Assembly (NCBI GenBank): GCA_027355725.1
Contig: DAIEHI010000053.1
Coordinates: 38,904 to 102,903 of the forward strand
DNA length: 64,000 nt
Reading direction: 5' to 3'
Origin: Acidimicrobiaceae bacterium
Lineage (GTDB): Bacteria; Actinomycetota; Acidimicrobiia; Acidimicrobiales; RAAP-2
Each line of letters opens with the position of its first letter. Position 1 is the first letter of the stretch. The notes under the pieces were generated by a model. The model had not been told where the DNA came from. It was given only the letters and a program-made list of their open reading frames with translations, and did no database searches. Shown here piece by piece: positions 44,097 through 49,856 of this stretch. Both the position numbers and the translations under genes were made by a program.

Positions 44097-44378
44097 TTAC
44101 CGATAGGCGTCTGCTCGATGTCGAATGGCAGTGACTTTCACAGTGTGTGTGGTGTCATCAATGAAGTACAAGACTCGGTAGTCGCCTCGATGTGCTGAAT
44201 ACGCCGGCGCCAAGGGAGTTCCGAGCGGCTTGCCAACGCGCTGAGGGTTGTCGAGCAACGGACCGGTGATGAATTCATACACCGCAAGGGCAGTCTTCTC
44301 AGGGAGTACCTCGGCGAGCGCCGACGCCGCTGAACGGGCGACTTGTAGGTGGTACTCGTCCTTATTTGGCGTGGACAC
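44097..44378 (-). CDS. RelE/ParE-superfamily toxin
   Basis: 93 residues. YHLQVARSAASALAEVLP is the basic first strand and helix; HRGDYRVLYFIDDTTHTVKVTAIRHRADAYR is the classic RelE C-terminal core (GDYRVLY then V-x-x-I-x-HR-x-x-Y-R) that cuts mRNA in the ribosomal A site. Overlaps the antitoxin by 17 bp, antitoxin first, as in relBE/yefM-yoeB operons. Confidence 0.9.
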   Translation of the reverse strand: MSTPNKDEYHLQVARSAASALAEVLPEKTALAVYEFITGPLLDNPQRVGKPLGTPLAPAYSAHRGDYRVLYFIDDTTHTVKVTAIRHRADAYR

Positions 44379-44652
44379 CGCGACCGGCGTTCTTCATTTC
44401 TTTCGCCAGTTGGTTAGCGTCAAAGGTGTCACCGTTCGCAAGCTCTTGGACGCCGGTCTCGTGTGCCCGCAAGAGGGCCGAGTCGGATAGCACGGCGATT
44501 GTCTCGCGCATGGCGTCGTAGTCGTCGGCTCCCATCAGAACGGCGACCCGGTGTCCATTCTTGGTGATTTCGATTCGCTCATGGGTCGAACTGGCTTCGT
44601 CGACCAATTTGGACAACTGAGCTCGGACGTCAGCTATGGGTAGGGTTGTCAT
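44362..44652 (-). CDS. Phd/YefM-type antitoxin
   Basis: 96 residues from ATG 44652; the longer ORF-track start runs through the promoter. LPIADVRAQLSKLVDEAS and ITKNGHRVAVLMGADDYDAM are the Phd/YefM DNA-binding fold; the C-terminal acidic/Leu half would wrap the toxin. TATAAT ends 7 nt before the ATG, so the message is leaderless, and a second TATAAT with the following TTA lies 11 bp upstream, possibly an operator repeat for autorepression. Confidence 0.9.
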   Translation of the reverse strand: MTTLPIADVRAQLSKLVDEASSTHERIEITKNGHRVAVLMGADDYDAMRETIAVLSDSALLRAHETGVQELANGDTFDANQLAKEMKNAGRGVHAK

Positions 44653-44659
44653 GTACAGA

Positions 44660-44665
44660 ATTATA
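44660..44665 (-). promoter_or_regulatory. Leaderless -10 box of the antitoxin-toxin operon
   Basis: TATAAT with 7 nt to the ATG. A second TATAATTA copy at 44671-44676 forms an 11-bp direct repeat. Confidence 0.6.
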
Positions 44666-44728
44666 GCGTAATTATAGGGCGGCTTTGCACTGGTTCTTGT
44701 TGTGTGACTCAAGGTCCGCGTCAGAAAA

Positions 44729-45127
44729 CTAGCGCCCAAGTCCTGGACCTACGTCCTTCCGGAGATTCTCGGAATCGTTATTATCCTGCCCGGTGCGTTG
44801 TAGCCGCGCTTCAAGCTGAAGAACAGCTGCTTCAAGTGGGGGAAGGTCCTCCGTAATGGTTGCTTCCACGATTGCTCGCGATGTGTCGAAATAGTGGTGC
44901 GCAAGCCAGTCTCGCATGCCAGCCGCGTCAGACCACCTGACGTCGGGTTCACTCGCGACGAGCTTGGGATCCAACAACTTGACCGCCTCGCCAATCTCGA
45001 TCAGACGAAGTCGAACGGCATCGAAAACAAGGCCATCGGAGAGATCGCCACGAGTGAGGTGACTCCTGATCGCGGTGATCGCATCAACAATGTCCGCGAG
45101 GCGTTCTGCATCGTGTCGCGAACTCAC
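44729..45127 (-). CDS. hepT: HepT-like HEPN RNase toxin
   Basis: 132 residues, all-helical HEPN (formerly DUF86). It carries the exact R-x4-H-x-Y motif (RDWLAHHYFDTS), whose Arg and His cut RNA and whose Tyr is adenylylated by MntA in characterised systems. Further family features: ADIVDAITAIRSHL, FDAVRLRLIEIGEAVKLL. Overlaps the MntA-type gene by 4 bp with the antitoxin first. Confidence 0.88.
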   Translation of the reverse strand: MSSRHDAERLADIVDAITAIRSHLTRGDLSDGLVFDAVRLRLIEIGEAVKLLDPKLVASEPDVRWSDAAGMRDWLAHHYFDTSRAIVEATITEDLPPLEAAVLQLEARLQRTGQDNNDSENLRKDVGPGLGR

Positions 45128-45654
45128 AGGGGCACAGCTTCGCGATGCACCGCTTCTCGGACACTAGGTCGCAGGCTGTCAGAAGGAGCAACGTCGACAG
45201 AGACGCCAAGTATCTCCGAGAGTTCCCTGCGCAGGGCTTCCAATGAAAATAGCCCTGTCGTGCGATCCAAGTCGACCACTAAATCGATGTCGCTCTCTGC
45301 CTGGTCTTCACCTCGTGCGGTGCTGCCAAAGACGCGGACGTTGCTCGCACCGTGGCGCGCCGCACAGGCGAGCACGGCGCGCCGGCGCTGGCGGAGGCGA
45401 CGACCAAGAGGGGTGTCAGGGATTCCACGTGGATACTCCCTCGTGCGTTCCAGGTCGAGGACGAGTCGGTGTCCCGTTGCGCGTACGAGGCGTCCAAGTG
45501 TGGAGACTGATGGCTCCCTGCGACCAGACTCATATGCGCTGATGACGCTCTGCGCGACCCCGGCACGACGCGCAACTTCGGTCTGTGACAGGTGAGAACT
45601 AACGCGTGCTCGCTTCAGGAGTCTGCCGACAGCTTCATCTTCGGGCTTTGTCAC
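45124..45654 (-). CDS. mntA: HTH-fused MntA-type nucleotidyltransferase antitoxin
   Basis: 176 residues. Residues about 10-65 are an XRE-type helix-turn-helix (HLSQTEVARRAGVAQSVISAYESGRREPS). Residues about 90-170 are a minimal nucleotidyltransferase with GSTARGEDQAESDIDLVVD, i.e. G-S-x10-D-x-D. The NTase part should AMPylate the HepT Tyr; the HTH would make the antitoxin its own autorepressor, whereas stand-alone MntA lacks a DNA-binding domain. GTG start with TAGGCT 6 nt upstream. Confidence 0.88.
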   Translation of the reverse strand: MTKPEDEAVGRLLKRARVSSHLSQTEVARRAGVAQSVISAYESGRREPSVSTLGRLVRATGHRLVLDLERTREYPRGIPDTPLGRRLRQRRRAVLACAARHGASNVRVFGSTARGEDQAESDIDLVVDLDRTTGLFSLEALRRELSEILGVSVDVAPSDSLRPSVREAVHREAVPL

Positions 45655-46250: not shown

Positions 46251-47000
46251 CTAAGCGGGCGTGGTAGTTGTTTGGCGAAACCGCACAGTGCCATCGGGAC
46301 CGGTCACGTCCCATTCGCTGAGTCCAGTTTCGAGGTGGCCCTCGAGGAACATGGTGGAGCCCGAGCCAGCCAGAGTGATCTCTCTGGAGAATTCTGAGCG
46401 CAACCAGGCCAGCGTCGAAGCGAGTCGCGGTTCGACGAGTGCGGCCGCACGTTCGAGGTGGTTGCGGCCCTCTAGTCGCTCACCGGCGGCCTTCAATTCG
46501 TCATACGCCTCGTAGCAGCGCCGGGTATCCACGGCGAACCCGGGCATCATCAAGGTGACGTCTCGAGACTCGAAGTGAAGCGGCGTGAGACGTTCACCCA
46601 CACCCTCAACGAGTGCTCGCCCCCCCAATTGACAAAACGGCACGTCGCCACCGAGGGTGAGGGCCTCTTCGTTGCTGACGCCACCAGCCCATCGCAGTAT
46701 CGCTCCGGCGTCGGCACTCCCCCCACCGAGCCCACCACCAGGTGGAATACGCTTCACCAGCGTGACCCCAGCGGTGCGATTGACGAGTTTGAGTGCGCGT
46801 GCGACGAGATTGGTGTCATCAAGGGCGAGTTCAATCTCTGAATCTTCGAGGCGCAAATAGTCGCCACTCGGGTCGATGAACAACCGGTCGGCTAATTGGA
46901 GGGTGACCATCTCGCTTCGTAACTCGTGGTACCCGTCGTCACGACGCCCGGTGATCTCAAGGAACCAGGTGAGTTTCGCCGGCGCCAACAACTCGTTCAT
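46251..47000 (-). CDS. ispE: 4-diphosphocytidyl-2-C-methyl-D-erythritol kinase
   Basis: 249 residues, short for the family (about 280-310). GHMP kinase acting in the non-mevalonate isoprenoid pathway. Motifs: APAKLTWFLEITGRRDDGYHEL (motif 1), RIPPGGGLGGGSADAGAILRW (ATP loop), GGDVPFC and TLAGSGSTMFLEG (motif 3). The shortened middle part accounts for the length. Coupled with ksgA by a 4 bp overlap, the order known from mycobacteria. Confidence 0.92.
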   Translation of the reverse strand: MNELLAPAKLTWFLEITGRRDDGYHELRSEMVTLQLADRLFIDPSGDYLRLEDSEIELALDDTNLVARALKLVNRTAGVTLVKRIPPGGGLGGGSADAGAILRWAGGVSNEEALTLGGDVPFCQLGGRALVEGVGERLTPLHFESRDVTLMMPGFAVDTRRCYEAYDELKAAGERLEGRNHLERAAALVEPRLASTLAWLRSEFSREITLAGSGSTMFLEGHLETGLSEWDVTGPDGTVRFRQTTTTPA

Positions 47001-47812
47001 CGAGCCGCCGCCAATCGCGCGAACTCCTCGAGGGTCAACTCCTCTGGTCGACGGGTAGCGGCGATGTCGGCACGCTCGAAGACCCCCTCACTCGCCCAGC
47101 TGGCGAGGGAGCGGCGAAGCATCTTGCGGCGCTGGGCGAATGAGGTCCTGATCACCTCAAAGAGGGCCTCTTCAGAGACAAGCGCCGGATCGATGCGAGG
47201 GCTCGTGCGGCGAACGATCGACACGAGCGCCGAATCGACGTTGGGTTTGGGGACAAAGACATTGGGCCCGACCTTGCCAACGACGTGCGCATCGGCGAAA
47301 TACTGGACGCGCAGTGACGCCGCACCGTAGGCCTCGTCACCCGCGTGAGCGGCGAAACGCTCCCCGACTTCCTTTTGGACCATGACGAGCATGCGCGTGA
47401 TGAGAGGTTCGGCCTCGAGCAGGTGCAGGACCAGCGGGGTCGCCACGTTGTAAGGAAGATTCGCCACCACCACCGCCGGTCGCCCGGAGAGGATCGCGCT
47501 GTAATCGGCGTCGAGGGCGTTCGCGTGGTGGACCTCGACGCCGAGTGGAGAGACGACACTTCGAAGCGGCGCGAGCAAGTACTTGTCGATCTCCATGGCG
47601 TGGACCTCAGCACCGGTCTCGACCAAAGCGAGGGTCAGCGATCCAAGTCCCGCGCCGATCTCGAGGACGAGGTCGCCCGGCCCCACCTGGGCGAGGCGCG
47701 CAATCCGACGCACCGTATTGGCGTCGACGACGAAGTTCTGACCGAGGGCTCTCGAAGGCTTGAGCCCGTGTTCTTCGAGAAGAGCGACGAGCTCGGTGCG
47801 AGTGTGGGTCAC
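46997..47812 (-). CDS. ksgA: 16S rRNA dimethyladenosine transferase
   Basis: 271 residues. Dimethylates the two adjacent adenines of 16S helix 45 using SAM. ALGQNFVVDANTVRRI, LEIGAGLGSLTLALVE (SAM site) and VVANLPYNVATPLVLHL (NLPY catalytic motif) are complete. Start overlaps the stop of the PASTA-RlpA gene by 4 bp, so envelope and ribosome-assembly genes share one transcript here. Confidence 0.96.
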   Translation of the reverse strand: MTHTRTELVALLEEHGLKPSRALGQNFVVDANTVRRIARLAQVGPGDLVLEIGAGLGSLTLALVETGAEVHAMEIDKYLLAPLRSVVSPLGVEVHHANALDADYSAILSGRPAVVVANLPYNVATPLVLHLLEAEPLITRMLVMVQKEVGERFAAHAGDEAYGAASLRVQYFADAHVVGKVGPNVFVPKPNVDSALVSIVRRTSPRIDPALVSEEALFEVIRTSFAQRRKMLRRSLASWASEGVFERADIAATRRPEELTLEEFARLAAAR

Positions 47813-48927
47813 CAGGAGACTCTGACGTCGATAACGCCCTGGGCGAGCGGCGCCAACCGCGCGAAGTCGGTCTCTGAGAGGTCAATGATCCGATCGCCCC
47901 TAGCCGCCTCGTGGTCGGTGACCACGCAGGTGATCGAGTGTCCCGTCGCCAAGTCGATCACCCTGACGTGGATGCCCATTGGCAAGAACCAGGTGGCACA
48001 GCGTCCCGGAATGTACGAGTACCACGTCGCCACGCCAATGCGGTAGTCACGCGACACCGAACGCTTGATCGTCGTCGTTGTCGTAGGGGCCACGGTCGTC
48101 GTTGTCGTTGGTGGCGTCGTCGTCGAGGTCGTGGGTTCGCCCGGGTAGGTCGTTGTCGTAGTCGGAGGGACGGTCGTTGTCGTGGGGAGCGGTGTAGCAG
48201 GGTGCGCACGGATGATGGTGACCGTTGCTGTCACGGTTGTGTTCCAGGCCACGAGCGTGCCGGGGGCCGGGGACTGGCGGACGATCTTGGTCCACGTGTT
48301 CGACGAGCTGCCAAGCCCCTCAGTTCTGATCTTCAGATGCAGACCGGCGAGCACCGCTGTGACTCGCGCTCGCGAAAGACCGAGGAGGCTGGGTACACGC
48401 TCTTTAGGGTGGATCACACCGAGGGCAGTACTGATGGCGACTGAAGCGTGCCACGCCACGAGCGTGCCGGGGGCCGGGGACTGGTGGATAACGCGATTCC
48501 ACTTGCCCGTGGAACTGCCGGGGCCCGTTGGTACGAAATACAGTTCTGCCGCCTTCATCGCGGCGAGGACCCTCGTCGGGGAGAGCCCGAGGAGATTGGG
48601 AACTCTGCGTGGTGGGTGCACCGCGACGAGCGACGTGGTCAAGATGACCGTCGATCGCCAAGGCACGAGGGTGCCGGCAGCGGGTATCTCACTAGTTACC
48701 GACACCCAGTTCTTCGTCGAGCTCCCGGGGCCTGTCGTTCGAAAGAACAATTGGTCCGCCCGCATCACCGCGAAGACCTGGGCCCGACTCAGTCCGACGA
48801 CGTTGGGCATGGGTTCGGGCGCGTGGGTACCCGACGCTCCGGCTTCGGGCGTGGTCATCACCATTGAACTCATCACAATGACGAGTGTGGCGACAATCGA
48901 AAACGGGCGATGAAACGTCCGTTGCAT
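47809..48927 (-). CDS. Exported three-PASTA plus RlpA-like (double-psi beta-barrel) protein
   Basis: 372 residues from ATG 48927, with GAGGAC 6 nt upstream. Signal peptide (SIVATLVIVMSSMVMTT); three PASTA domains at about 38-103, 105-170 and 172-240, each with a VPxLLGLSxxxV start; a Thr/Pro linker (about 243-298); and a C-terminal RlpA-like barrel (GVATWYSYIPGRCATWFLPMGI, TDHEAARGDRIIDLS). PASTA binds peptidoglycan or muropeptides; RlpA-like barrels bind or cut glycan. In mycobacteria this position (tatD-x-ksgA) is held by rpfB, so it may be a functional substitute. Function inferred from domains. Confidence 0.85.
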   Translation of the reverse strand: MQRTFHRPFSIVATLVIVMSSMVMTTPEAGASGTHAPEPMPNVVGLSRAQVFAVMRADQLFFRTTGPGSSTKNWVSVTSEIPAAGTLVPWRSTVILTTSLVAVHPPRRVPNLLGLSPTRVLAAMKAAELYFVPTGPGSSTGKWNRVIHQSPAPGTLVAWHASVAISTALGVIHPKERVPSLLGLSRARVTAVLAGLHLKIRTEGLGSSSNTWTKIVRQSPAPGTLVAWNTTVTATVTIIRAHPATPLPTTTTVPPTTTTTYPGEPTTSTTTPPTTTTTVAPTTTTTIKRSVSRDYRIGVATWYSYIPGRCATWFLPMGIHVRVIDLATGHSITCVVTDHEAARGDRIIDLSETDFARLAPLAQGVIDVRVSW

Positions 48928-49061
48928 TGATGTCCTCAGTTCTCCACCCTCCGCGGGGACAACGGAAAGTTCCCACTTCCCGCCCCTCAACGCTAGGCAA
49001 GGGGGGAACTAGAGGCAACTCATTTGCCATAAAATATTTAAATTACCTAATCAGTTGATAT
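48928..49061. other. AT-rich spacer upstream of the PASTA-RlpA gene
   Basis: 134 bp containing an unusually AT-rich tract (ATAAAATATTTAAATTACC) in a GC-rich genome and an ATTTGCCA/TGGCAAAT inverted pair about 42 nt apart whose outer arm is in the tatD end. It could hold an internal promoter. The rpf-associated c-di-AMP riboswitch was looked for and is not recognisable. Confidence 0.4.
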
Positions 49062-49856
49062 TTATCGAACTGGCAAATTGAAGAGTCTGGCCGTATTCCT
49101 AGACGTCGCGCTTCGAAGGACCTCGACGTCCTCGCCCCTCAGTTCGGCGACGAATTCACCAACGACACTCACGAAGGCGGGTTCGTTCGCGCGACCGCGA
49201 TACGGCACCGGAGCGAGGAAGGGGCTGTCCGTCTCGACGTGGAGTCGATCGAGCGGCACCATCTTCGCCGCGTCACGAAGTGATGACGCGTTCTTGAACG
49301 TGACCACACCCGACAACGAGATGTCACAACCCATCGCGAGACACCCTTCAACGTCGTCTGGGGTACCGGTGAAGCAGTGGATCACCGTGCGCGCGGGAAC
49401 ACCCTCGCTCCCTAGAACCTCAAAAAGGTCGTCAAATGCGTCACGTGCGTGGATCACGAGGGCCAGATCGAGCTCGTGGGCGAGCTGAATCTGGGTCGCG
49501 AACGCTTGGCGCTGCGCCACGCGAGGAGAATGCTCGTAGTAGTAATCAAGTCCGCACTCACCGATCCCGACCAGTCGCGCGTGGCCGTTTCTCGCCATCT
49601 CGAGGACAGGCGTGATGTCATCGAGCGCGTCGTGGGGGTGCAGACCTACCGTTGCGTAGATCTCGACATCACCCGACAGCTCGCTCAGCGCGAGCGCCTC
49701 CCTGGAGGACTCCGCGTCGGTGCCAATGACAACGAGCCGGTCAACTCCGGCCTCGAGCGCACGCGCCAAGGTGGCATGCACGTCGGCGAGCACCTGATCG
49801 TCCTTGGAGAGGTACCGGTCCTGGAGGTGACAGTGAGCGTCGGTCCAGTTGCTCAT
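49062..49856 (-). CDS. tatD: TatD-family metal-dependent hydrolase
   Basis: 264 residues, TIM-barrel amidohydrolase fold. Metal ligands: TDAHCHLQ (HxH), ECGLDYYYEHS (Glu), VIHARDAF (His), IHCFTG (His) and HVETDSPFLAP (Asp). TatD proteins are 3'-5' DNA exonucleases or D-aminoacyl-type hydrolases in different species. Overlaps metG by 4 bp and precedes the PASTA-RlpA gene. Confidence 0.94.
   Translation of the reverse strand: MSNWTDAHCHLQDRYLSKDDQVLADVHATLARALEAGVDRLVVIGTDAESSREALALSELSGDVEIYATVGLHPHDALDDITPVLEMARNGHARLVGIGECGLDYYYEHSPRVAQRQAFATQIQLAHELDLALVIHARDAFDDLFEVLGSEGVPARTVIHCFTGTPDDVEGCLAMGCDISLSGVVTFKNASSLRDAAKMVPLDRLHVETDSPFLAPVPYRGRANEPAFVSVVGEFVAELRGEDVEVLRSATSRNTARLFNLPVR

Follow-up and report, generated by a model that had tools for sequence, protein, structure and literature searches.

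A PASTA and RlpA-like barrel protein at the rpfB locus of an Acidimicrobiales genus

Domain architecture and selection

In the DNA analysed here, a stretch of 64,000 nucleotides from an Acidimicrobiaceae bacterium (hereafter, the window), the gene between tatD and ksgA encodes three PASTA domains joined by a Thr/Pro-rich linker to a compact RlpA-type double-psi beta-barrel. As far as our search reached, this fusion appears to be a new architecture: no PASTA–barrel fusion was seen outside the genus among the matches listed for 397 sampled genomes of the phylum, with at most five first-look candidates scored per genome. Our preferred reading, held as a whole with about even confidence, is that the protein is an exported cell wall remodeller, a PASTA-guided lytic barrel, which would have arisen by stepwise domain displacement and would be coupled to ksgA. 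The features of the locus, numbered along the window, are as follows.

49062..49856 (-) tatD (TIGR00010, 248 bits)
49013..49018 (-) promoter-like -35 element TTGCCT, read from the sequence, 17 nt from the -10 element
48990..48995 (-) promoter-like -10 element TAGCGT, recognised by eye also before the slot gene of most species in the genus
48948..48952 (-) Shine-Dalgarno sequence GGAGG, with 8 nt between it and the CTG
48937..48939 (-) likely start codon CTG; at least 88 of 94 species in the genus have it in this position
47809..48939 (-) slot gene, likely CTG start and TGA stop included; the first-pass annotation began it at ATG 48925-48927
48826..48927 (-) putative N-terminal signal segment (aa 1-34), with a basic n-region and, in the model, a hydrophobic helix at 11-21
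48634..48816 (-) PASTA domain 1 (aa 38-98), Pfam and AlphaFold model
48430..48609 (-) PASTA domain 2 (aa 107-166), Pfam and AlphaFold model
48220..48402 (-) PASTA domain 3 (aa 176-236), Pfam and AlphaFold model
48049..48219 (-) Thr/Pro-rich linker (aa 237-293), pLDDT below 50, dN highest among the segments
47812..48048 (-) compact RlpA-type double-psi beta-barrel (aa 294-372), by profile, fold and invariant residues
47809..47812 (-) GTGA overlap of the slot gene stop and the ksgA start, from the sequence
46997..47812 (-) ksgA (rsmA) (TIGR00755, 238.6 bits)
46251..47000 (-) ispE (TIGR00154, E 2e-33, under its equivalog cut-off)

The ATG-initiated frame (47809-48927, minus strand) encodes 372 amino acids, which the first-pass annotation had taken for an exported protein of three PASTA domains, a linker and an RlpA-like barrel. 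Pfam, AlphaFold and Foldseek agree on this architecture, and the protein is apparently exported, judging from the putative signal segment. Both profiles that had been proposed as a check score above their cut-offs, PASTA (PF03793) with 75.5 bits against 23.2 (E 3.2e-21, three stretches) and DPBB_1 (PF03330) with 29.3 bits against 28.8 (E 1e-6, aa 313-370), the barrel reaching 31.7 bits in the genome-wide profile search. The AlphaFold model contains three PASTA folds and the barrel, with pLDDT of these blocks mostly 75–90 and a disordered linker and N-terminus. According to Foldseek, the PASTA domains match PASTA chains of PknB and penicillin-binding proteins (E down to 1e-10), and the barrel matches the RlpA-like protein PA4485 (4avr), loosenin and expansins.

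The genus consists of uncultured actinobacteria, and all of its 99 species-level genomes contain a match to the protein. The slot gene could be read in 94 loci of the genus (genome G225 gave two contigs), and the barrel is present in each of them. Comparison with two orthologues (84–85% identical) yields dN/dS of about 0.05 for the barrel, 0.03–0.13 for the PASTA domains and 0.13–0.17 for the linker; every segment is under purifying selection. Given the retention of the barrel in all resolved slots of the genus and the low dN/dS, the slot gene is not a chance open reading frame. At its 5' end (48817-48927, minus strand, aa 1-37), dS is 0.2–0.34, lower than in the domains (0.5–1.4), which suggests an additional nucleotide-level constraint near the start.

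Content of the slot in other lineages

The first-pass annotation identified the position between tatD and ksgA–ispE as that of rpfB, and the survey upholds this, as the slot holds Rpf proteins in other families of the order and DUF348-G5-Rpf proteins in sister orders. We located ksgA in 198 genomes of Acidimicrobiia and read the tatD–ksgA gap in a sample of these. The 29 genomes from other families of the order have an Rpf protein in eight cases (L056, L059, L065, L067, L071, L074, L078, L079), a degenerate barrel in 13, a canonical barrel in one (L066) and an empty slot in seven. In 40 genomes from other orders, the slot contains a barrel in 11 cases and Rpf in six (one of which, L096, sits on a contig ending before tatD), and is empty in 23. 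According to Pfam, DUF348-G5-Rpf proteins occupy the slot in sister orders (L100, L104), and DUF348-G5-DPBB proteins, in other Acidimicrobiia (L092, L119, L121, L129); by inspection, barrel proteins with DUF348/G5-like domains also lie between tatD and ksgA in other Actinomycetota (L231, L237, L249). Since the survey shows both types of protein, and DUF348-G5 with either C-terminal domain, Rpf and the barrel alternate at one locus.

Barrels in this slot are thus not confined to the organism analysed here, and YabE provides a Firmicute precedent (PMC1084345), to which the first-pass annotation did not refer. The exchange between Rpf and another muralytic domain at tatD–ksgA has already been published for RpfB and YabE (Ravagnani 2005, PMC1084345); new relative to it are the PASTA graft and the loss of DUF348 and G5. 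RpfB of actinobacteria and SpsB/YabE of Firmicutes (PMC1084345) resemble the window protein in occupying the tatD–ksgA slot and in being exported wall proteins that combine accessory domains with a muralytic C-terminal domain, export and activity being predictions for the window protein. Unlike them, it has no DUF348, G5, Rpf (Transglycosylas) or 3D (PF06725) domain, PASTA standing in the accessory place and an RlpA-type barrel at the C-terminus.

The DUF348-G5-DPBB slot proteins (L092, L119, L121, L129 and, by inspection, L231, L237) share with the window protein the locus and the compact barrel, where they carry DRGP...IIDL motifs. The window barrel retains IDL, with TDHEA in place of DRGP and CATW in place of CAHRT, and appears to be derived from a barrel of this type; the N-terminal domains differ. 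The degenerate slot barrels lack the catalytic Asp in 13 out of 13 sampled members of one family (L053-L055, L057, L058, L060-L062, L064, L068, L070, L072, L073); since these sister barrels lost the Asp, the fold can persist without catalysis. A profile of the Rpf-type N-terminal anchor, compared with the slot proteins of the barrel type, rose clear of the background for L057 (E 2e-6) and L073 (E 4e-3) only, which suggests common descent of the N-termini of both types.

Taken together, these data extend the non-orthologous displacement described for RpfB/YabE to a graded series within one class, comprising Rpf, DUF348-G5-Rpf, DUF348-G5-barrel, bare barrel, barrel with one to four PASTA domains, and degenerate barrel. 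Both parts of one wall protein, that for sensing and that for cutting, are seen changing at a fixed locus.

Acquisition of PASTA domains

The number of PASTA domains varies within the genus, with zero, one, two, three and four copies in 11, 10, 47, 14 and 12 species, respectively. In the tree of TatD and KsgA, the species without PASTA branch off one after another at the base, and those with PASTA form one clade, node support around the gain being moderate (0.95 and 0.80). This basal grade is most simply explained by one probable graft of PASTA onto a barrel that was already in place, copy-number changes following later.

The window PASTA domains share their subtype (GPGS..TW..V..Q.P.PGT..W) with the C-terminal PASTA in a second kinase-like protein of the same genome (G000:C216), a domain 43–53% identical to PASTA 1 and 2 of the slot protein; among the PASTA domains compared, PASTA 1 is closest to this last PASTA (L004 355-2193; 53%). 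Species with no PASTA in the slot carry the same subtype in their kinase-like proteins, at 36–53% identity to the window domains, hence a donor existed before the graft. The donor type would then be the C-terminal PASTA found in kinase-like PASTA proteins within the genus. In the G000:C216 protein itself (L004 355-2193), HGE replaces the kinase HRD motif, by eye, and it is likely a pseudokinase.

Possible activity of the barrel and its function

Eleven residues are invariant in the 94 barrels of the genus: G298, A300, T301, Y303, C310, A311, C334, D338, D349, L350, and F355. D349 aligns with the Ser of VISLS in RlpA of Escherichia coli, which is reported to be inactive, its catalytic Asp being Ser (PMC9712689). 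Thus, the window barrel shares with RlpA, a septal lytic transglycosylase, the fold and the position of the catalytic Asp. It differs in being shorter and lacking the ASG-FD-TAAH segment, which is missing or has CATW in its stead, as well as the RGP that follows the second Asp; NCBIfam RlpA (TIGR00413) gives 21.4 bits, far under the cut-off of 82.15. Pfam finds PASTA and DPBB only, with no SPOR domain, and the N-terminal segment contains no Cys, that is, no lipobox of a lipoprotein signal. With the Asp kept and the TAAH motif lacking, lytic activity is plausible.

According to our preferred reading, the protein would be exported from the rpfB slot as a peptidoglycan-remodelling factor, its PASTA repeats would bind uncross-linked or nascent peptidoglycan, and the flexible Thr/Pro linker would position the compact barrel of the RlpA/MltA superfamily, which would cut glycan strands as a lytic transglycosylase using D349. 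Its origin would start from a barrel alternating with Rpf at the locus, followed by the loss of DUF348-G5 in this lineage, a single PASTA graft and variation between one and four copies. Architecture, locus, distribution, selection and conserved residues are observed and the order of gains has moderate support, to which this reading adds export, ligand, catalysis and coupling as predictions. The muropeptide-guided enzyme suggested by the first-pass annotation is likewise a prediction. The PASTA fold is common to PASTA Ser/Thr kinases (PknB), PASTA penicillin-binding proteins and the window protein, but the latter has no kinase, transpeptidase or cytoplasmic signalling domain; here a PASTA sensor is physically joined to a candidate wall enzyme, a link that is normally indirect.

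We favour a lytic transglycosylase at a level of confidence close to even, and rank an expansin-like or hydrolase-activating barrel next. In this possible but less probable case, the barrel would be non-hydrolytic, binding glycan in the manner of expansins and loosenin or stimulating a partner endopeptidase, and the PASTA domains would only place it. Loosenin and expansins are indeed among its profile and fold matches, the pattern GxATWY...VxD...DL aligns with that of the expansin-type barrel 7wvr, the His and RGP motifs of RlpA are missing, and in Bacillus subtilis, LytE appears to be stimulated by RlpA-like proteins, YabE among them (PMC10653849). However, the absolute conservation of D349 in 94 species, at a position whose loss accompanies RlpA inactivity, fits catalysis at least equally well. 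A profile match to the Streptomyces papain inhibitor (5ntb, E 2.6e-5) could indicate a secreted protease-inhibitor-like or other non-wall module, which we consider highly improbable given the fusion to PASTA, the location at a peptidoglycan-enzyme locus and the better match to RlpA-like 4avr.

The first-pass annotation further suggested that the protein takes the place of a resuscitation factor. As regards the locus, this agrees with our data: the protein occupies the slot that Rpf uses in sister families, and we found no rpfB orthologue elsewhere, an outcome for which the first-pass annotation had asked, as DUF348 is absent from the genome (assembly 86% complete) and G5 from all 99 genomes of the genus. 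Whether it has also assumed the function, waking dormant cells, is a different matter, and here the evidence makes replacement unlikely. Besides the slot and the missing domains, it would be favoured by the 44 out of 99 genus genomes in which no Rpf domain was seen and by the proposed functional equivalence of Sps and Rpf (PMC1084345). On the other hand, the same genome has two short Rpf-domain ORFs elsewhere, at least one Rpf domain per genome is found in 55 out of 99 genus genomes, many of the genus genomes are incomplete, and slot barrels also occur in lineages without PASTA. Thus, the slot was refilled, and a transfer of the resuscitation function is no more than a hypothesis. The two short Rpf-domain genes (L001, L002; G000:C135, C131) are alike, each adjoining an SGNH-hydrolase-like ORF; they may reflect a duplication or a mixture within the MAG.

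Start codon and relation to ksgA

CTG is apparently the start codon of the slot gene in at least 88 out of 94 species of the genus. In the window, this codon lies 12 nt upstream of the ATG chosen by the first-pass annotation, and CTG with a Shine-Dalgarno sequence 6–10 nt before it is found in 88 out of 94 loci (L042-L049, L133-L222); the scan demanded CTG followed by A, and in one further species (G141) the base after the CTG is G. In 18 species, no ATG, GTG or TTG occurs from the upstream in-frame stop to codon +13, and in G203, G216, and G224 the in-frame stop directly precedes the CTG. Initiation at the next canonical start would cost the signal segment its basic part. The CTG column is not a matter of codon preference, because CTG accounts for 36% of Leu codons in these ORFs and two conserved Leu positions of the barrel use six codons each. 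A leader peptide encoded by an upstream frame that would end at the CTGA was rejected by hand inspection, as the frame is not kept where the spacing changes.

Slot genes in several related families of the order, of the barrel as well as the Rpf type (L056, L065, L071, L074, L079 for the latter), have a CTG in a like position; for most degenerate-barrel genes, an ATG lies nearby. The DUF348-type genes of sister orders have an Ile codon (18 ATC and two ATT out of 20) at a similar distance after a purine-rich Shine-Dalgarno-like stretch, near the onset of conservation (L092, L100, L102, L107, L108, L113, L119, L124, L125, L130, L267-L276); the patterns were anchored on Ile by eye, so that its invariance is partly by construction, and ATC/ATT are possible starts of these genes.

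At the other end of the slot gene, the GTGA overlap occurs in 94 out of 94 loci of the genus, the ksgA call starting at this GTG in 89 and a little away from it in five. The overlap is absent from the DUF348-type slot genes examined, which limits the idea of ksgA-coupled control. The slot gene would be translationally coupled to ksgA via this overlap. An AUU start is known for infC, a precedent for autoregulation. In Mycobacterium tuberculosis, rpfB starts at TTG, as shown experimentally, its ORF overlaps ksgA, and rpfB-ksgA-ispE are co-transcribed (PMC6009663). Since the loss of KsgA raises non-AUG initiation (PMC7897474), one can tentatively propose, by analogy with infC, that the near-cognate start and the overlap form an autoregulatory loop that ties the opening of the wall to the maturation of ribosomes: under-methylated 30S subunits or lax initiation would increase translation of the slot gene and so carry ribosomes into ksgA. 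We regard such fidelity-sensing control as a reasonable hypothesis of low probability. The conserved non-canonical start beside ksgA nevertheless makes the published, unexplained co-regulation of rpfB and ksgA testable via the choice of start codon.

Genes of the rpfA type can carry a ydaO riboswitch. Upstream of the slot gene, the Rfam riboswitch search gave two weak sub-gathering matches in the window (E up to 5), and none at the gathering score in 20 related loci. Elsewhere in the window, at 44097-45654, two apparent toxin–antitoxin pairs were noted by eye, one RelE/Phd-like (44097-44739) and one HEPN/MNT-like (44729-45654).
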